Shown piece by piece: positions 12,925 through 35,504 of a stretch of 38,780 nucleotides of DNA; within the stretch, counting starts at the first letter, position 1; the number at the start of each line of letters is the position of its first letter. The notes under the pieces are model-generated. The model was not told the origin of the DNA, made no database searches, and worked only from the letters and a program-made list of their open reading frames with translations. The translations under genes were made by a program, and so were the position numbers. Source of the DNA: an uncultured Bacteroidota bacterium (lineage in GTDB: Bacteria > Bacteroidota > Bacteroidia > Bacteroidales > F082); the NCBI GenBank assembly GCA_937901015.1, contig CALCGQ010000304.1, positions 1-38,780 on the forward strand, in the 5' to 3' direction.

Positions 12925-13032
12925 TATAAAATTTTTATGCCCGCAAATATAGTTAAGTTTAGTGCAGCTGATAAATGCATATTAGTAGATTAGCCAAAAT
13001 AATGATGATTTTACTTTATGATGATATATTAC

Positions 13033-13040
13033 TATATTTG
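13033..13040 (+). promoter_or_regulatory. Candidate -7 box of the H-NOX operon (TATATTTG)
   Basis: TAnnTTTG match 33 nt upstream of the H-NOX ATG; no clear -33 TTG. Confidence 0.45.
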
Positions 13041-13072: not shown

Positions 13073-13615
13073 ATGAAAGGTGTTATATTTACAGAATATA
13101 TTGAGTTTGTTGAAAATAGTTTTGGTTTTGACCTTGCCCAAGAAATGGTTGAGTCTTCGAATTTGACAAATGAGGGAGTCTTCACAAGTGTTGGAACATA
13201 TGATTCTTCGGAGCTTGTGGCGATGGTTGTAAATCTATCAAAACTGGTAGATATAGGGATATCGGAATTGCTAATAGCATATGGAGAACACTTATTTGGC
13301 CGATTTGCAGAACTATACCCACATTTTTTCATTGAGGACATTACGATTTACGATTTTATAAATAAAATTGATAACTACATCCATGTTGAAGTAAAGAAAC
13401 TTTATCCAGATGCCGAACTCCCCAAGGTTACAACTACATATATTGACAATGACAGGATAGAAATTATTTACTCCTCAAGAAGAAAGTTCGGAGATTTCGC
13501 ACATGGTTTGTTATTGGGAGCAGTTTCGTTTTTTAAAGAAAACATAGAGATCTCAAAACAAATAATAGAAGAAGATGGTTCAGAAGTGAAGTTTATTCTT
13601 ATTAGAAAAGCCTAA
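13073..13615 (+). CDS. H-NOX (heme NO/O2-binding) domain protein
   Basis: MKGVIFTEYIEFV N-terminus; proximal heme ligand context IDNYIHVEVKKLYPDAELP (His104); YxSxR propionate motif YSSRR (133-137); GLLLGAVSFFKE. Confidence 0.93.
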   Translation: MKGVIFTEYIEFVENSFGFDLAQEMVESSNLTNEGVFTSVGTYDSSELVAMVVNLSKLVDIGISELLIAYGEHLFGRFAELYPHFFIEDITIYDFINKIDNYIHVEVKKLYPDAELPKVTTTYIDNDRIEIIYSSRRKFGDFAHGLLLGAVSFFKENIEISKQIIEEDGSEVKFILIRKA

Positions 13616-13619
13616 TGTT

Positions 13620-14993
13620 TTGACAGATCAAAACAAATATGACCAACTTCAAAGGGCTTTTAATAGAGAACGAAAATCTCGAAAAGAGGCCGAAAGAATC
13701 ATTGAGCAAAAGGCTCTTGAGTTATATTATGCTAATAAGGATCTAAAAGAGATAAACAAAACTCTGGAAAACAGAATTATAGAGCGAACCAAAGATATTG
13801 AACGATCCAAACAAGAGCTAATAAAAGCTAAAGTTATTGCTGAACAGGCCACGAGAGCCAAATCTGAGTTTTTATCAAATATGACACATGAACTTCGAAC
13901 ACCACTTAATGGAGTTATTGGACTTTCTGAAATCGTACTTAATGAAGATTTGAGTAAAAATGTGAAAGATATGCTTGAAAACATAAAATTTTCAGCAAAT
14001 CATCTAAGTGGCGTAATTAATGAAATTTTAGATTTTTCAAAAATTGAAGCAGGCAAAACAACATTTGAAGAAATAGAATTCAATCTTCCAGAGCTTATCA
14101 ATAGTTCGTACAATAACCTTACGATGTCAGCGAAAAGCAAAGGTCTCGAATTGCTTCTTAATTATGATAAAAAAATACCTAATACAATAAAAGGAGATCC
14201 TGTTAAGCTGAATCAAATACTTAATAATATTGTAGGTAATGCATTAAAGTTTACTGATAATGGGTTTGTTAAGCTTTCCTGTCTGTTAAAAGAACATAAT
14301 AAATCAACAGGAAAAGTTATTATTTCGTTTACTATTGAAGATACTGGTATTGGCATAAAGAAAGAAAACCTTGATGGTGTATTTAAAAGCTTCATCCAAA
14401 GCGACAATTCAGTGTCGAGAAAATATGGTGGTACCGGACTTGGGTTAACTATTACCAGAAATTTCATTGAGTTACAAGGGGGAAAATTGGAAGTTAGCAG
14501 TGAATACGGAATGGGTTCAACTTTTTATTTTGCATTACCCTTTAAATATGTGAGTCATGAAAGCAAAGTGAGCATTAGTGTTAATCCTTTTGAGAATAAA
14601 ACCATTGATGCTACTATTCTTGTGGTAGATGATGTTGCCATTAACCAACTTGTCGTTTCAAAGATTCTTAGTAAGTGGAATGCCGTAGTTGATATTGCTT
14701 CAAGCGGTAAGGAAGCGCTCTATCTGCTTGGTAAAAAAACATATGATTTAGTTCTTATGGATGTACAAATGCCTGAAATGAGCGGAATTGAAGCAACCAA
14801 CATAATCAGAAATGATAAAAAATTTGAACATATTTCAGATATCCCAATTATAGCATTTACAGCTAATGCATTTGATGATTCACAAAGACATGTTATAGAA
14901 TCAGGAATGAATGCTTTTGTTTCGAAACCTGTTAAACCTGAAAAGCTTTATGAAGAAATAACTAAAATTATGGAAGCTACTAATCGAAAATAA
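13620..14993 (+). CDS. Hybrid histidine kinase (coiled coil-HisKA-HATPase-receiver), H-NOX-associated
   Basis: RERKSRKEAERIIEQKALELYYANKDL coiled coil; HisKA FLSNMTHELRTPLNGVIGLSEI; HATPase NIVGNALKFTDNG, DTGIGI, GGTGLGLTI; receiver ILVVDD...LVLMDVQMPEMSG...FVSKPVKPEKL. Begins with TTG. Confidence 0.93.
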   Translation: MTDQNKYDQLQRAFNRERKSRKEAERIIEQKALELYYANKDLKEINKTLENRIIERTKDIERSKQELIKAKVIAEQATRAKSEFLSNMTHELRTPLNGVIGLSEIVLNEDLSKNVKDMLENIKFSANHLSGVINEILDFSKIEAGKTTFEEIEFNLPELINSSYNNLTMSAKSKGLELLLNYDKKIPNTIKGDPVKLNQILNNIVGNALKFTDNGFVKLSCLLKEHNKSTGKVIISFTIEDTGIGIKKENLDGVFKSFIQSDNSVSRKYGGTGLGLTITRNFIELQGGKLEVSSEYGMGSTFYFALPFKYVSHESKVSISVNPFENKTIDATILVVDDVAINQLVVSKILSKWNAVVDIASSGKEALYLLGKKTYDLVLMDVQMPEMSGIEATNIIRNDKKFEHISDIPIIAFTANAFDDSQRHVIESGMNAFVSKPVKPEKLYEEITKIMEATNRK

Positions 14994-14995
14994 TA

Positions 14996-15448
14996 ATGCT
15001 TGAAAATATATCACATAGCGAATTAAATAGTCTTTTTTCTAAATATGCAAATTCGAGTTCTGAACCATTTTTTGTAATTAACTCCAGTTATGAAGTTGTT
15101 TTTGCCAATATGGCAATGGAAAATTATGTCCAAAAGACTATGAAAGAAATGCAGAACTCCTATTTTGGTAATGTTCTTGGGTGCACATACATTGAAAAAG
15201 GTCAAAATGATTGTGGAAATAATTATTATTGTGGCATCTGCAATTTGCGCAATTCTTTCGCCGAATGTTTTAAAACAAAGTCCTCAGAAATATATCAGAC
15301 CGTGGTTCGTGATTTTTTATTAAAAGATGAAAAGATTCTAAAGCAAATACATATTAAGACATACTTTGTAGAAATAGTAGATCGTCCTCATATTGCAGTT
15401 TCAATAATAAAACCGACTAATGATTTTGATTCTGTGAGTATTTATTGA
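14996..15448 (+). CDS. Small PAS-like protein with a four-Cys cluster (C-x9-C-x5-C-x2-C)
   Basis: PAS-like start EPFFVINSSYEVVFANMAMENYV, then GNVLGCTYIEKGQNDCGNNYYCGICNLRNSF; starts 2 nt after the kinase stop codon. Confidence 0.75.
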   Translation: MLENISHSELNSLFSKYANSSSEPFFVINSSYEVVFANMAMENYVQKTMKEMQNSYFGNVLGCTYIEKGQNDCGNNYYCGICNLRNSFAECFKTKSSEIYQTVVRDFLLKDEKILKQIHIKTYFVEIVDRPHIAVSIIKPTNDFDSVSIY

Positions 15449-26839: not shown

Positions 26840-29800
26840 ATGTTGAATTTGCTAAAAAATACGAGAACAACTTACTTTTTTGCTTCTGCTATTCTAATTT
26901 TTCTGCTTTTTCACCTATTTCAACACCTACATCAACATTCTCATTCAACTCAAAGCGAATACGAAAACCTTTCATATAGTTTTGATTATCAATCTATTAT
27001 ATTAATTAATGGCTCTAATTATGCTACAAACCTGATCCATAAAAAAAATTATGTAGATAATTCATCCATAGACAGCACTCTAGAAGCACATAAACTCACA
27101 GGTTTTGTATATGATCATGACAGCATTGTATATTGGAATAATTCTATTATTAACCCTGAGAATTTTTTTAATCTTAAAACAGATAATAATGTTCACTGTG
27201 TAAAACTACCCTCGGGTTGGTATTTATATATCGGTAACATTGTTGATAGTTACACAATCTATATTTTCGATTTAATTAAATCAGATTATCAAATGGACAA
27301 CCCATTGTTAATTCCAGGGTTTATGTCGGAATATAGCTCAAGTGAAAATATCCTCCTTTCATTGGATGAAGAGAATTCATTATATCAGATATACAATAGT
27401 GCGGGAAATTTCTTAATCGGTATTAATTTCGACCATAACAACAATGAAAGTAAACATGGAAACCTTCTTGTATTTACACTATTTATATTAGCAATTATTT
27501 CTATAATAATAGCAATCTACAATTGGATAGACAGATTAAAAAAAATTCAATCTAACCAGGATCTGAAGCTCTTTATTTTTATTCTTTTCATAATAGGAAT
27601 TTGGACTACTCTTTATTTTACAGGATATCCATATGTACTAAAACATACATCAATATTTAATGAATACAATTACAATCTGCCTCTAACAAATTCAACAGGA
27701 GAATTAATAATAAACTCAATATTCTTAAGCATCATTTCCATATTTACCTACCTCATTATTGGAAAGAATGGAAATACTCAATCACCGATTACAATCATTA
27801 TAAAATACACTTTGTTGTGGATGTATTTATTACTCATCTTCTCTTTTATCTATAACACAATACAAAACCCAAACCTTACATATATAACGGAACTTACATT
27901 TAGTGATATAAGTATAATTCTTTCGATATTTATAATAATACTTTTGAATGTATCAATTTATTATACATTATTGGCATACCTCAATCCTCCTAAAACTAAC
28001 AAAATACCATACTTTGTACCGATATTAATTGTCGTCTCTGGTATATTCTTTCTTTACCTGCTAATTGATGTACAGGTAACTATCCTCGCAATAACAATAT
28101 GTATCTCCATTGTTATAATCACCATTAAGTATTTTATTTGGAGACGGGTTGCCGATATATTTTTGAAAAACCTATTACTACTTTTGATTCTTTCTGTAAC
28201 TTCTGCTATACTAATAAATTACTCGCTTACTCAAAAGAAAAATGAATATCAGAAATATGTAGCCATTACTCTTGCTACCACAAATGATATTAAATTCGAA
28301 AAGGAGTTTTCTGCAAATATTACACAACTTAAAAATGATAATATTCTTAATTATATTGTACTAAATGATACAGTTGGTAACCAGGTTGAAAACTATATAA
28401 GATCAAACTATTTCAGCGGGTATTTTAATAAGTATGATCTACAAATTACAAATTGTAGTGATGATGAATTAATAGAAATACAACCCGAAGGAACCATATA
28501 CAATTGTTCAGATTATTTCTATTCGCTAATTGATGAGTTTACAATATCGTCGGTTGATTCCACACTTTATCAATTTAACTCTGAAACTGAAGGCTATTAC
28601 TACATATGCTTTTTAAAAATTCATGATAAAAAAGATAAAAACAATGACAGAAATTTATTCATTGAATTTGTTTCATCGCATGTTCCCGAAGGACTAGGAT
28701 ATCCAGAACTACTTGTTGATAGCAAATCCCAAACATTGAATTTATCCAACTTCTCATTTGCAAGATATTCTGGGAATCTTCTTACATATAAATTTGGTGA
28801 ATATCAATACAATACATACCTTTCAACACAGGACGAATTACAGTACAATACTTTCTCTAAATACAGTAATTCGATTCATTATACCATCAAAATAAATGAT
28901 GAATCATATCTGATTGTAAGCAGAAAAGAAACTTCCATAACAATGAAGATTGTGATCTTTTCTCTAACCTTCATTCTCCTTTCCATAATATCTGTAATTG
29001 TATATTTCATCGCATATGCAAGACGTGCAATTAGCCTATTTAGACTTAATTTTAAAACTAGGTTACAAACATTTGTTATCGCTACTCTAACAATTACATT
29101 TATACTTATCGCCATTTCTACTTTGTTCTATATTGAAGAAAGTACAAAAGAAGAAATGGAAAAGCAGCTATCGGAAAAAACAAATTCAGTACTAATAGAA
29201 TTACAACATAAATTATCTGCTGTATCAGATTTAAGAAATGAGGATAAGGAATTTCTACATCAGCTTCTTCGAAAGTTTTCATTGGTTTTCTTTTCTGACA
29301 TTAATTTATATGACAAATCTGGGCAGCTTATTGCCACATCAAGACCAGAAATTTTTGATAAGAACCTACTTTCAACATATATTAATCCGGATGCATATAA
29401 AGCCATTTTTATTGAAAATGAATTGAATTATATCACAGAGGAAAAAATTGGCTCACTAAGGTATTATTCGTCTTACGTACCCATTAATCTAAATAATTAT
29501 TTCCCCATCGGTATAGTGAATCTTCCATATTTTGCACGTCAGTCAGAATACACTAAATCATACTATATAATGTTATCGTATTTGATAAATATATATGTTA
29601 TAATTGGTATAATTGGTACTCTTATAGCTGTAACTTTTTCAAGGTATTTAACAAGGCCGCTTGTATTACTTCAGGAAAGTATATCCAATATCAGAATTGA
29701 TCAGCAAAATGAGAAAATTGAATGGAACAAAAATGATGAAATAGGATTGCTCATCAATGAATATAACAGGATGGTAGATAAGCTTGAGGAAAGCGCCGGG

Positions 29801-30496
29801 TTATTGGTAAGATCCGAACGAGAAAGTGCCTGGAGAGAGGTGGCAAAGCAAATTGCTCATGAAATCAAAAATCCTTTAACTCCGATGAAGCTAAATGTTC
29901 AATATCTTGAAAAAGCATATAGGAACAACGATCCTGATTTTAAGTCTAAAATTGATTCAATAAGCAAATCATTAATTACACAGATTGATACACTAGATAA
30001 TGTGGCTGAAACATTTTCGAACTTTGCGAAAAACAAACGGTTGGATTATGACGATGTGAATCTAAGAAAAGTAATAACTACAGCTGTTGATCTTTTTAAT
30101 AAAAAATCCAATGTTAGCATAAAAGTAAACTATGAGAATCAAAACGATGTTCTGAATATTCTTGGATTTGAAAAAGACACATTAAGAGCAATTAATAATA
30201 TTCTTAAAAATGCAATACAGTCAGTGGAAAATAAAGATGTTGGCATAATTAATATTAATGTTTCCAACAATGATAATTTTGTGGAAGTATCAATTAGCGA
30301 CAATGGGAAAGGAATAGCTAGTGATATGAAGGCAAAAATTTTCCAGCCATATTTCACCACCAAAACAAGTGGGACAGGATTGGGACTAGCTATTGTTAAG
30401 AATATAATTATTGAAACTGGTGGAGATGTACACTTTGAATCAACAGTAGGTATTGGAACAACATTCTTCTTAAAATTCCCCAGAGTAACCAAATAA
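26840..30496 (+). CDS. Multi-TM NtrY-like sensor histidine kinase
   Basis: About 10-11 hydrophobic segments; HAMP after RYLTRPLVLLQESI; HisKA SAWREVAKQIAHEIKNPLTPMKLNVQYL; HATPase SDNGKGI, GTGLGLAIVKNI. Confidence 0.92.
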   Translation: MLNLLKNTRTTYFFASAILIFLLFHLFQHLHQHSHSTQSEYENLSYSFDYQSIILINGSNYATNLIHKKNYVDNSSIDSTLEAHKLTGFVYDHDSIVYWNNSIINPENFFNLKTDNNVHCVKLPSGWYLYIGNIVDSYTIYIFDLIKSDYQMDNPLLIPGFMSEYSSSENILLSLDEENSLYQIYNSAGNFLIGINFDHNNNESKHGNLLVFTLFILAIISIIIAIYNWIDRLKKIQSNQDLKLFIFILFIIGIWTTLYFTGYPYVLKHTSIFNEYNYNLPLTNSTGELIINSIFLSIISIFTYLIIGKNGNTQSPITIIIKYTLLWMYLLLIFSFIYNTIQNPNLTYITELTFSDISIILSIFIIILLNVSIYYTLLAYLNPPKTNKIPYFVPILIVVSGIFFLYLLIDVQVTILAITICISIVIITIKYFIWRRVADIFLKNLLLLLILSVTSAILINYSLTQKKNEYQKYVAITLATTNDIKFEKEFSANITQLKNDNILNYIVLNDTVGNQVENYIRSNYFSGYFNKYDLQITNCSDDELIEIQPEGTIYNCSDYFYSLIDEFTISSVDSTLYQFNSETEGYYYICFLKIHDKKDKNNDRNLFIEFVSSHVPEGLGYPELLVDSKSQTLNLSNFSFARYSGNLLTYKFGEYQYNTYLSTQDELQYNTFSKYSNSIHYTIKINDESYLIVSRKETSITMKIVIFSLTFILLSIISVIVYFIAYARRAISLFRLNFKTRLQTFVIATLTITFILIAISTLFYIEESTKEEMEKQLSEKTNSVLIELQHKLSAVSDLRNEDKEFLHQLLRKFSLVFFSDINLYDKSGQLIATSRPEIFDKNLLSTYINPDAYKAIFIENELNYITEEKIGSLRYYSSYVPINLNNYFPIGIVNLPYFARQSEYTKSYYIMLSYLINIYVIIGIIGTLIAVTFSRYLTRPLVLLQESISNIRIDQQNEKIEWNKNDEIGLLINEYNRMVDKLEESAGLLVRSERESAWREVAKQIAHEIKNPLTPMKLNVQYLEKAYRNNDPDFKSKIDSISKSLITQIDTLDNVAETFSNFAKNKRLDYDDVNLRKVITTAVDLFNKKSNVSIKVNYENQNDVLNILGFEKDTLRAINNILKNAIQSVENKDVGIININVSNNDNFVEVSISDNGKGIASDMKAKIFQPYFTTKTSGTGLGLAIVKNIIIETGGDVHFESTVGIGTTFFLKFPRVTK

Positions 30497-34949: not shown

Positions 34950-35504
34950 CTAGTAAAAATATATGAATAAGTAAACTGTAGGTATTGCAATACCCAAAAT
35001 AACCATCCAGGCACCACGTGCACCAATTCCATTACTTCCTCTTGGAATTAAAATTCCTGACAGACCAAGAATTATTAATGCTCCAGCAAAAATATCTGAA
35101 AACCATGTCCAGTATTTAATGGGGTTATAATGCAAATAATTCATTTCTCTAAATAATGGGCGACGCGTAGTTTTTTCAACTAATCCGTTTCCACTAACAA
35201 GATTAATATATATGGTTCCATCTTTAATGAATATCTTAACAAATTCATCATTTGGAAAATAATGACTTTTATAATTACCTGATTCTCCAGTAGGTTCGAT
35301 GATTTTCTTCAGTTCAGCCTTTGTAGGTTTTTCAGATGGAGGGTCGATACGAAACTCCTCAGTCATAACTACAAAATTAGGATTCCAATCATCAATATGG
35401 TTAATTGCTATACCCGATAAGGAATATATTATCACCATTCCGAAAAATAAATATCCGAAATCTCTGTGGACAGCTTTGTTCCACTTACGCCACTTAAATG
35501 TCAT
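34950..35504 (-). CDS. PepSY-associated TM-helix domain protein
   Basis: KWRKWNKAVHRDFGYLFFGMVIIYSLSGIAINH; NYLHYNPIKYWTWFSDIFAGALIILGLSGILI typical of PepSY_TM-like small proteins. Confidence 0.8.
   Translation of the reverse strand: MTFKWRKWNKAVHRDFGYLFFGMVIIYSLSGIAINHIDDWNPNFVVMTEEFRIDPPSEKPTKAELKKIIEPTGESGNYKSHYFPNDEFVKIFIKDGTIYINLVSGNGLVEKTTRRPLFREMNYLHYNPIKYWTWFSDIFAGALIILGLSGILIPRGSNGIGARGAWMVILGIAIPTVYLFIYFY

Follow-up and report, generated by a model that had tools for sequence, protein, structure and literature searches.

Three ORFs lie in succession on the forward strand of the window, the whole 38,780-nucleotide stretch of DNA that was analysed. The first, at positions 13073-13615, encodes an H-NOX (HNOB) protein of 180 aa. 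The second, at 13620-14993, has a TTG start and encodes a hybrid histidine kinase of 457 aa, and the third, at 14996-15448, encodes a stand-alone PAS-like protein of 150 aa with a cysteine cluster, here called Cys-PAS. The gaps given by the ORF coordinates are 4 nt between the H-NOX and kinase genes and 2 nt between the kinase and Cys-PAS genes, and the layout of H-NOX, hybrid kinase and 150-aa four-cysteine protein described in an earlier note on this DNA was exact in coordinates and spacing. A candidate promoter of the Bacteroidota type, TTTA-N19-TATATTTG, was found on the same strand at 13010-13040, 33 bp 5' of the H-NOX gene; it is a candidate only, as promoter motifs occurred in the window at chance level in the sigma-70 and TAnnTTTG scans. 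No terminator-like site was found in the scan that accompanied the promoter search. A domain search of the large ORFs of the window returned no response regulator and no GGDEF, EAL or DNA-binding domain, which agrees with the earlier note that no output-domain regulator is encoded here. A lone kinase of 1218 aa at 26840-30496 contains HisKA and HATPase domains, lacks a receiver and has no adjoining regulator.

The product of the first gene matched PF07700 (HNOB) with an E value of 8e-38 in Pfam, and its closest solved relatives by sequence were 6ocv and 6bde/6bdd (E approximately 1e-39). The haem-binding features are kept, with the proximal His104 and the YxSxR motif in the form YSSRR at residues 133-137, and a kinase gene lies in the same predicted operon, as in known H-NOX/kinase systems. 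The protein contains no cysteine and has Phe at the R+5 position, five residues past the motif Arg. In O2-binding H-NOX proteins this position is occupied by Tyr, and NO selectivity is therefore the property expected from the sequence of this H-NOX.

In the second gene, Pfam identified HisKA (residues 80-145), HATPase_c (192-309) and Response_reg (receiver, 333-447) domains. The phospho-acceptor positions His90 and Asp381 are invariant, and the TTG start is backed by an alignment in which relatives begin at the same residue. In the AlphaFold model of the kinase (mean pLDDT 72), residues 4-107 form a single helix and no N-terminal sensor domain is present, so that the protein is modelled as a compact kinase without a sensor domain of its own. 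The coding sequence of the long helix (13620-13940, forward strand) includes a RERKSRKEAERIIEQK motif that also occurs in other H-NOX-linked kinases.

The third gene product alone had no Pfam match. PAS models were matched by three of four members of its family (best E value 2e-6), the AlphaFold model has a PAS topology at moderate confidence (mean pLDDT 65), and Foldseek searches with this model returned PAS/LOV domains. These three lines agree with the PAS-like nature first proposed for the protein, and the four clustered cysteines reported with it were located at C63, C73, C79 and C82 (C63-x9-C73-x5-C79-x2-C82, codons at 15182-15241, forward strand). The model reveals no metal site because the cysteine loop, residues 62-80, has a pLDDT below 50. 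A PDB sequence search with Cys-PAS gave nothing credible, and no published Fe-S PAS protein with the spacing C-x9-C-x5-C-x2-C was found in the readable literature. Several other identities were considered and set aside. HNOBA was not matched by the protein up to an E value of 0.1, nor by its relatives up to 1, and neither the protein nor its relatives matched FIST_N or FIST_C, which speaks against a NosP/FIST protein. An NCBIfam HydE match (E 0.011) fell far short of the cut-off and was taken as chance. LOV photoreceptors carry a GRNCRFLQ-type motif with the adduct Cys; despite high-ranking LOV matches in Foldseek, this adduct Cys motif was absent by inspection.

The neighbourhoods of 61 H-NOX genes were surveyed in Bacteroidota genomes, drawn from samples at family, order and phylum level and from relatives of trio carriers. 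A compact kinase of 446-461 aa with coil, HisKA, HATPase and receiver lay directly 3' of the H-NOX gene at 11 loci. At one of these (G292) the contig stops within the kinase; at all ten readable loci (G000, G057, G034, G016, G492, G377, G442, G508, G927 and G928) a Cys-PAS gene of 132-157 aa followed the kinase immediately. These ten trios come from five families of a single order. At the remaining 50 H-NOX loci, some of them on short contigs, no stand-alone Cys-PAS gene adjoined the H-NOX gene. Within the family of the window, 4 of 149 genomes had a strong Cys-PAS match, and in all four the H-NOX and kinase genes were directly upstream. Retention of the third gene beside H-NOX kinases in relatives had been set beforehand as the test of the earlier note, and its presence at every readable compact-kinase locus supports the third gene as a real conserved component of the H-NOX kinase system. 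A search of genome contigs with a Cys-PAS alignment profile recovered only three relatives that were already known (the single-sequence query recovered none); these three trio relatives are MAGs, one from Marinilabiliales and two from Bacteroidetes.

Intergenic gaps within the trios did not exceed 11 nt, and start and stop codons overlapped at several loci. The flanking genes mostly differed between genomes; the window and G034 have gltX upstream and a gene for an S9 peptidase downstream in common, and G492 and the pair G927/G928, which are close relatives, also have common flanks. Among eight aligned trios, amino acid identity was 36-69% for H-NOX, 42-70% for the kinase and 11-45% for Cys-PAS. 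Judged by these sequences, Cys-PAS diverges much faster than its two neighbours, which is unusual for a core signalling interface. The similarity matrices were correlated, with r values of 0.91 for H-NOX and kinase, 0.86 for kinase and PAS, and 0.75 for H-NOX and PAS (Mantel p 0.0002-0.004); such values fit co-inheritance and are no proof of contact, since shared species history gives the same pattern. In the tree, the core trio PAS domains (five rows) formed a clade with support of 100/93, and three long-branch members were unplaced. The fast divergence of the third protein is what might be expected of a passenger gene, co-inherited with the H-NOX and kinase genes and functionally unrelated to them, but adjacency in ten of ten trios despite changing flanks, with several start/stop overlaps, makes this explanation hardly credible.

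The first, third and fourth cysteines, the last two forming a CxxC motif, were kept in all ten trio proteins. The second was kept in eight and replaced by His in G442 and by Glu in G377, leaving three cysteines in each. This pattern is free of profile bias because six of the ten trios were reached through H-NOX and not through the Cys-PAS profile; in the wider family found by the profile, the first cysteine and the CxxC were present in 58 of 58 members and the second cysteine in 55 of 58, figures that are biased by the search. A strict four-cysteine cluster is ill-suited to the family because of the two trios with His or Glu at the second position. Invariance of the first cysteine and the CxxC, together with a second position that accepts His or Glu, resembles a structural or zinc site, and is the best evidence for the view that Cys-PAS is a zinc-structured or cofactor-free adaptor whose cluster merely stabilises the fold, and which connects H-NOX with the kinase or fixes the geometry of the kinase dimer, with no sensing. 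The protein is also small and divergent in sequence, and zinc binding by the PAS domain of a kinase is known (PMC6624279).

The occurrence of the Cys-PAS domain elsewhere bears on this adaptor explanation, for which the PAS domains of soluble guanylate cyclase offer a likeness. The domain forms the N-terminal part of approximately 29 short kinases and is also found within multi-PAS kinases, and where it is fused to a kinase it lies at the input end. An orphan clade of ten stand-alone Cys-PAS proteins was found away from kinases, with support of 100/100. By sequence, the family appears definable by a pattern of about C-x(8-12)-C-x5-C-x2-C, with stand-alone and kinase-input forms. Because the domain occurs in orphans and in kinases free of H-NOX, bridging to H-NOX is excluded as its general role. 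Because unrelated short kinases carry the same domain at their input end, we consider an adaptor without sensing unlikely, though it is not to be dismissed lightly.

Members of the orphan clade (L035, L037, L039, L040, L045, L046, L054, L065, L066 and L070) are approximately 160 aa long, carry the motif CGEAIGCAYxxEExKDCGxTSxCxxC and have no kinase in the same operon. Short Cys-PAS kinases at four loci (L008, L012, L017 and L021) are located 3' of lipoprotein-like and PepSY-TM-like genes. The window itself has a PepSY-TM-like gene on the reverse strand (34950-35504), preceded by a 216-aa gene, and no Cys-PAS kinase was found there. A plasmid search gave just two weak matches, to diguanylate cyclases.

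A further explanation is that Cys-PAS acts as a thiol/disulfide redox switch that replaces the Cys/zinc site found inside the H-NOX of Vibrio cholerae, where disulfide formation at the zinc site is reversible and the kinase is inhibited (PMC8738867). The window H-NOX is free of cysteine and none of the trio H-NOX proteins has three cysteines, in keeping with such a replacement. However, three cysteines were also missing from most Bacteroidota H-NOX proteins that have no Cys-PAS partner, so no trade-off with Cys-PAS was seen for the Cys/zinc site of H-NOX. A thiol switch of this type is quite improbable.

The earlier note had proposed that the third protein is a co-sensor, an adaptor or an effector of the kinase, and had argued from the missing regulator. 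Among these roles the co-sensor is favoured, because Cys-PAS is the input end of other kinases and the trio kinase has no sensor in its model. The effector argument turned out to be weak, because hybrid H-NOX kinases of the HqsK type use a stand-alone Hpt encoded elsewhere and the genome carries a free Hpt, a 115-aa protein encoded near recA on another contig (C73 of G000, L191:6013-6360), which is a candidate phosphorelay partner. That Cys-PAS is an output protein, reading the state of the kinase and acting elsewhere, would suit its position as the last gene of the operon with no response regulator nearby. The domain search of the protein and its relatives found no output or phospho-acceptor domain, its fused homologues sit on the input side, and a free Hpt is available; an effector role is accordingly very unlikely.

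The closest known arrangement is the H-NOX/HqsK system of Vibrio, in which autophosphorylation of HqsK is suppressed by NO-bound H-NOX and the receiver hands phosphate on to the Hpt protein LuxU, from which it reaches LuxO (PMC6759604). Both systems have hnoX beside a hybrid HisKA-HATPase-receiver kinase, and the parts of such a phosphorelay were found here, namely the HisKA His, the HATPase, the receiver Asp and the free Hpt on another contig as candidate partner. In contrast to HqsK, for which the accessible text mentions no Cys-PAS third gene, the trio has this gene, and its kinase is compact and modelled without a sensor domain of its own.

The proposed convergence of two receptors on one kinase has a parallel in NreABC of Staphylococcus. 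The kinase NreB senses O2 through a PAS domain in which four Cys hold a [4Fe-4S] cluster (PMC4601167), and NreA is a separate nitrate receptor acting on it (PMC9918477). In that system, as would be so in the trio, one cytoplasmic kinase takes input from a four-Cys PAS domain and from a small receptor made as a separate protein. The NreB-type feature seen here is the PAS fold, in a model of moderate confidence; the window protein and eight of ten trios have four cysteines (three in the other two) as candidate cluster ligands. In NreABC, however, the PAS domain lies in the kinase and the receptor acting in trans is a nitrate receptor of the GAF type, whereas here both sensors would be separate and one of them is an H-NOX. 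AirS of S. aureus likewise has a Cys cluster at the kinase input; it holds a [2Fe-2S] cluster that is sensitive to NO and peroxide and reacts with S-nitrosoglutathione (PMC4601167). Its motif C-x7-C-x-C-x17-C does not occur in the third gene product, which has C-x9-C-x5-C-x2-C.

FIST genes near hnoX are already known (PMC8738867). At eight loci of the survey (L154, L156, L166, L168, L171, L172, L173 and L177) the order was receiver, H-NOX, kinase, a gene of approximately 377 aa and a second kinase. The approximately 377-aa product was a FIST_N/FIST_C protein in both loci tested (L154 and L166), NosP-like and far below the NosP cut-off. These two operons resemble the trio in having a second putative sensor gene 3' of H-NOX and kinase, and differ from it in the fold of the FIST protein and in the presence of the second kinase. 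In other Bacteroidota families (L158, L160 and L161), the H-NOX kinase was 950-1328 aa long with a PAS-repeat-like region before HisKA and no Cys-PAS gene after it; these long kinases are possibly the integrated counterpart of the trio.

Soluble guanylate cyclase is built of H-NOX, H-NOXA/PAS, coiled coil and cyclase. As in this enzyme, H-NOX, PAS and a long helix would feed one catalytic unit in the trio, whereas the trio PAS has no HNOBA match in Pfam and the trio parts are separate proteins.

Taken together, the reading that we favour, at somewhat better than an even chance, is that the kinase of the trio belongs to a phosphorelay under H-NOX control and takes input from two trans-acting sensors, with Cys-PAS as a metal or Fe-S sensor subunit and with output to an Hpt encoded elsewhere. 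For the cofactor, the docking, the direction of the signal and the NO response of the trio system we infer the following. Binding of NO to H-NOX would change the activity of the kinase through its long N-terminal helix, as suggested by the Vibrio and Shewanella homologues. Cys-PAS would be an input PAS domain encoded apart from the kinase, with a metal held by its Cys cluster, most probably as Fe-S, and it would dock on the same kinase as H-NOX and report a redox, O2, iron or high-NO state. Phosphate would then pass from His to Asp and on to the Hpt encoded elsewhere in the genome. The genome also encodes NrfA together with an NrfH-like protein, as well as the beginning of a protein of the Hcp family (Prismane), and from these sequences exposure to NO is plausible.

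H-NOX beside a hybrid kinase is known, and H-NOX is usually treated as the sole sensor of its kinase. No paper naming a Cys-PAS protein as an H-NOX partner was found in a literature search that covered few subscription journals. More tentatively, and at somewhat less than an even chance, a separately encoded Fe-S PAS protein and a haem NO sensor may both act in trans on a sensorless hybrid kinase, whose output would either combine NO with the redox, O2 or iron state or cover low and high NO by means of two cofactors. This Cys-PAS protein may then be the founding member of a family of sensor subunits that is common in Bacteroidota both as orphans and fused to kinases. If the favoured reading is true, the trio would be a small soluble system for the study of two-input NO kinases, and a second, Cys-cluster sensor in a conserved operon would mean that the NO kinases of bacteria combine two kinds of chemistry.
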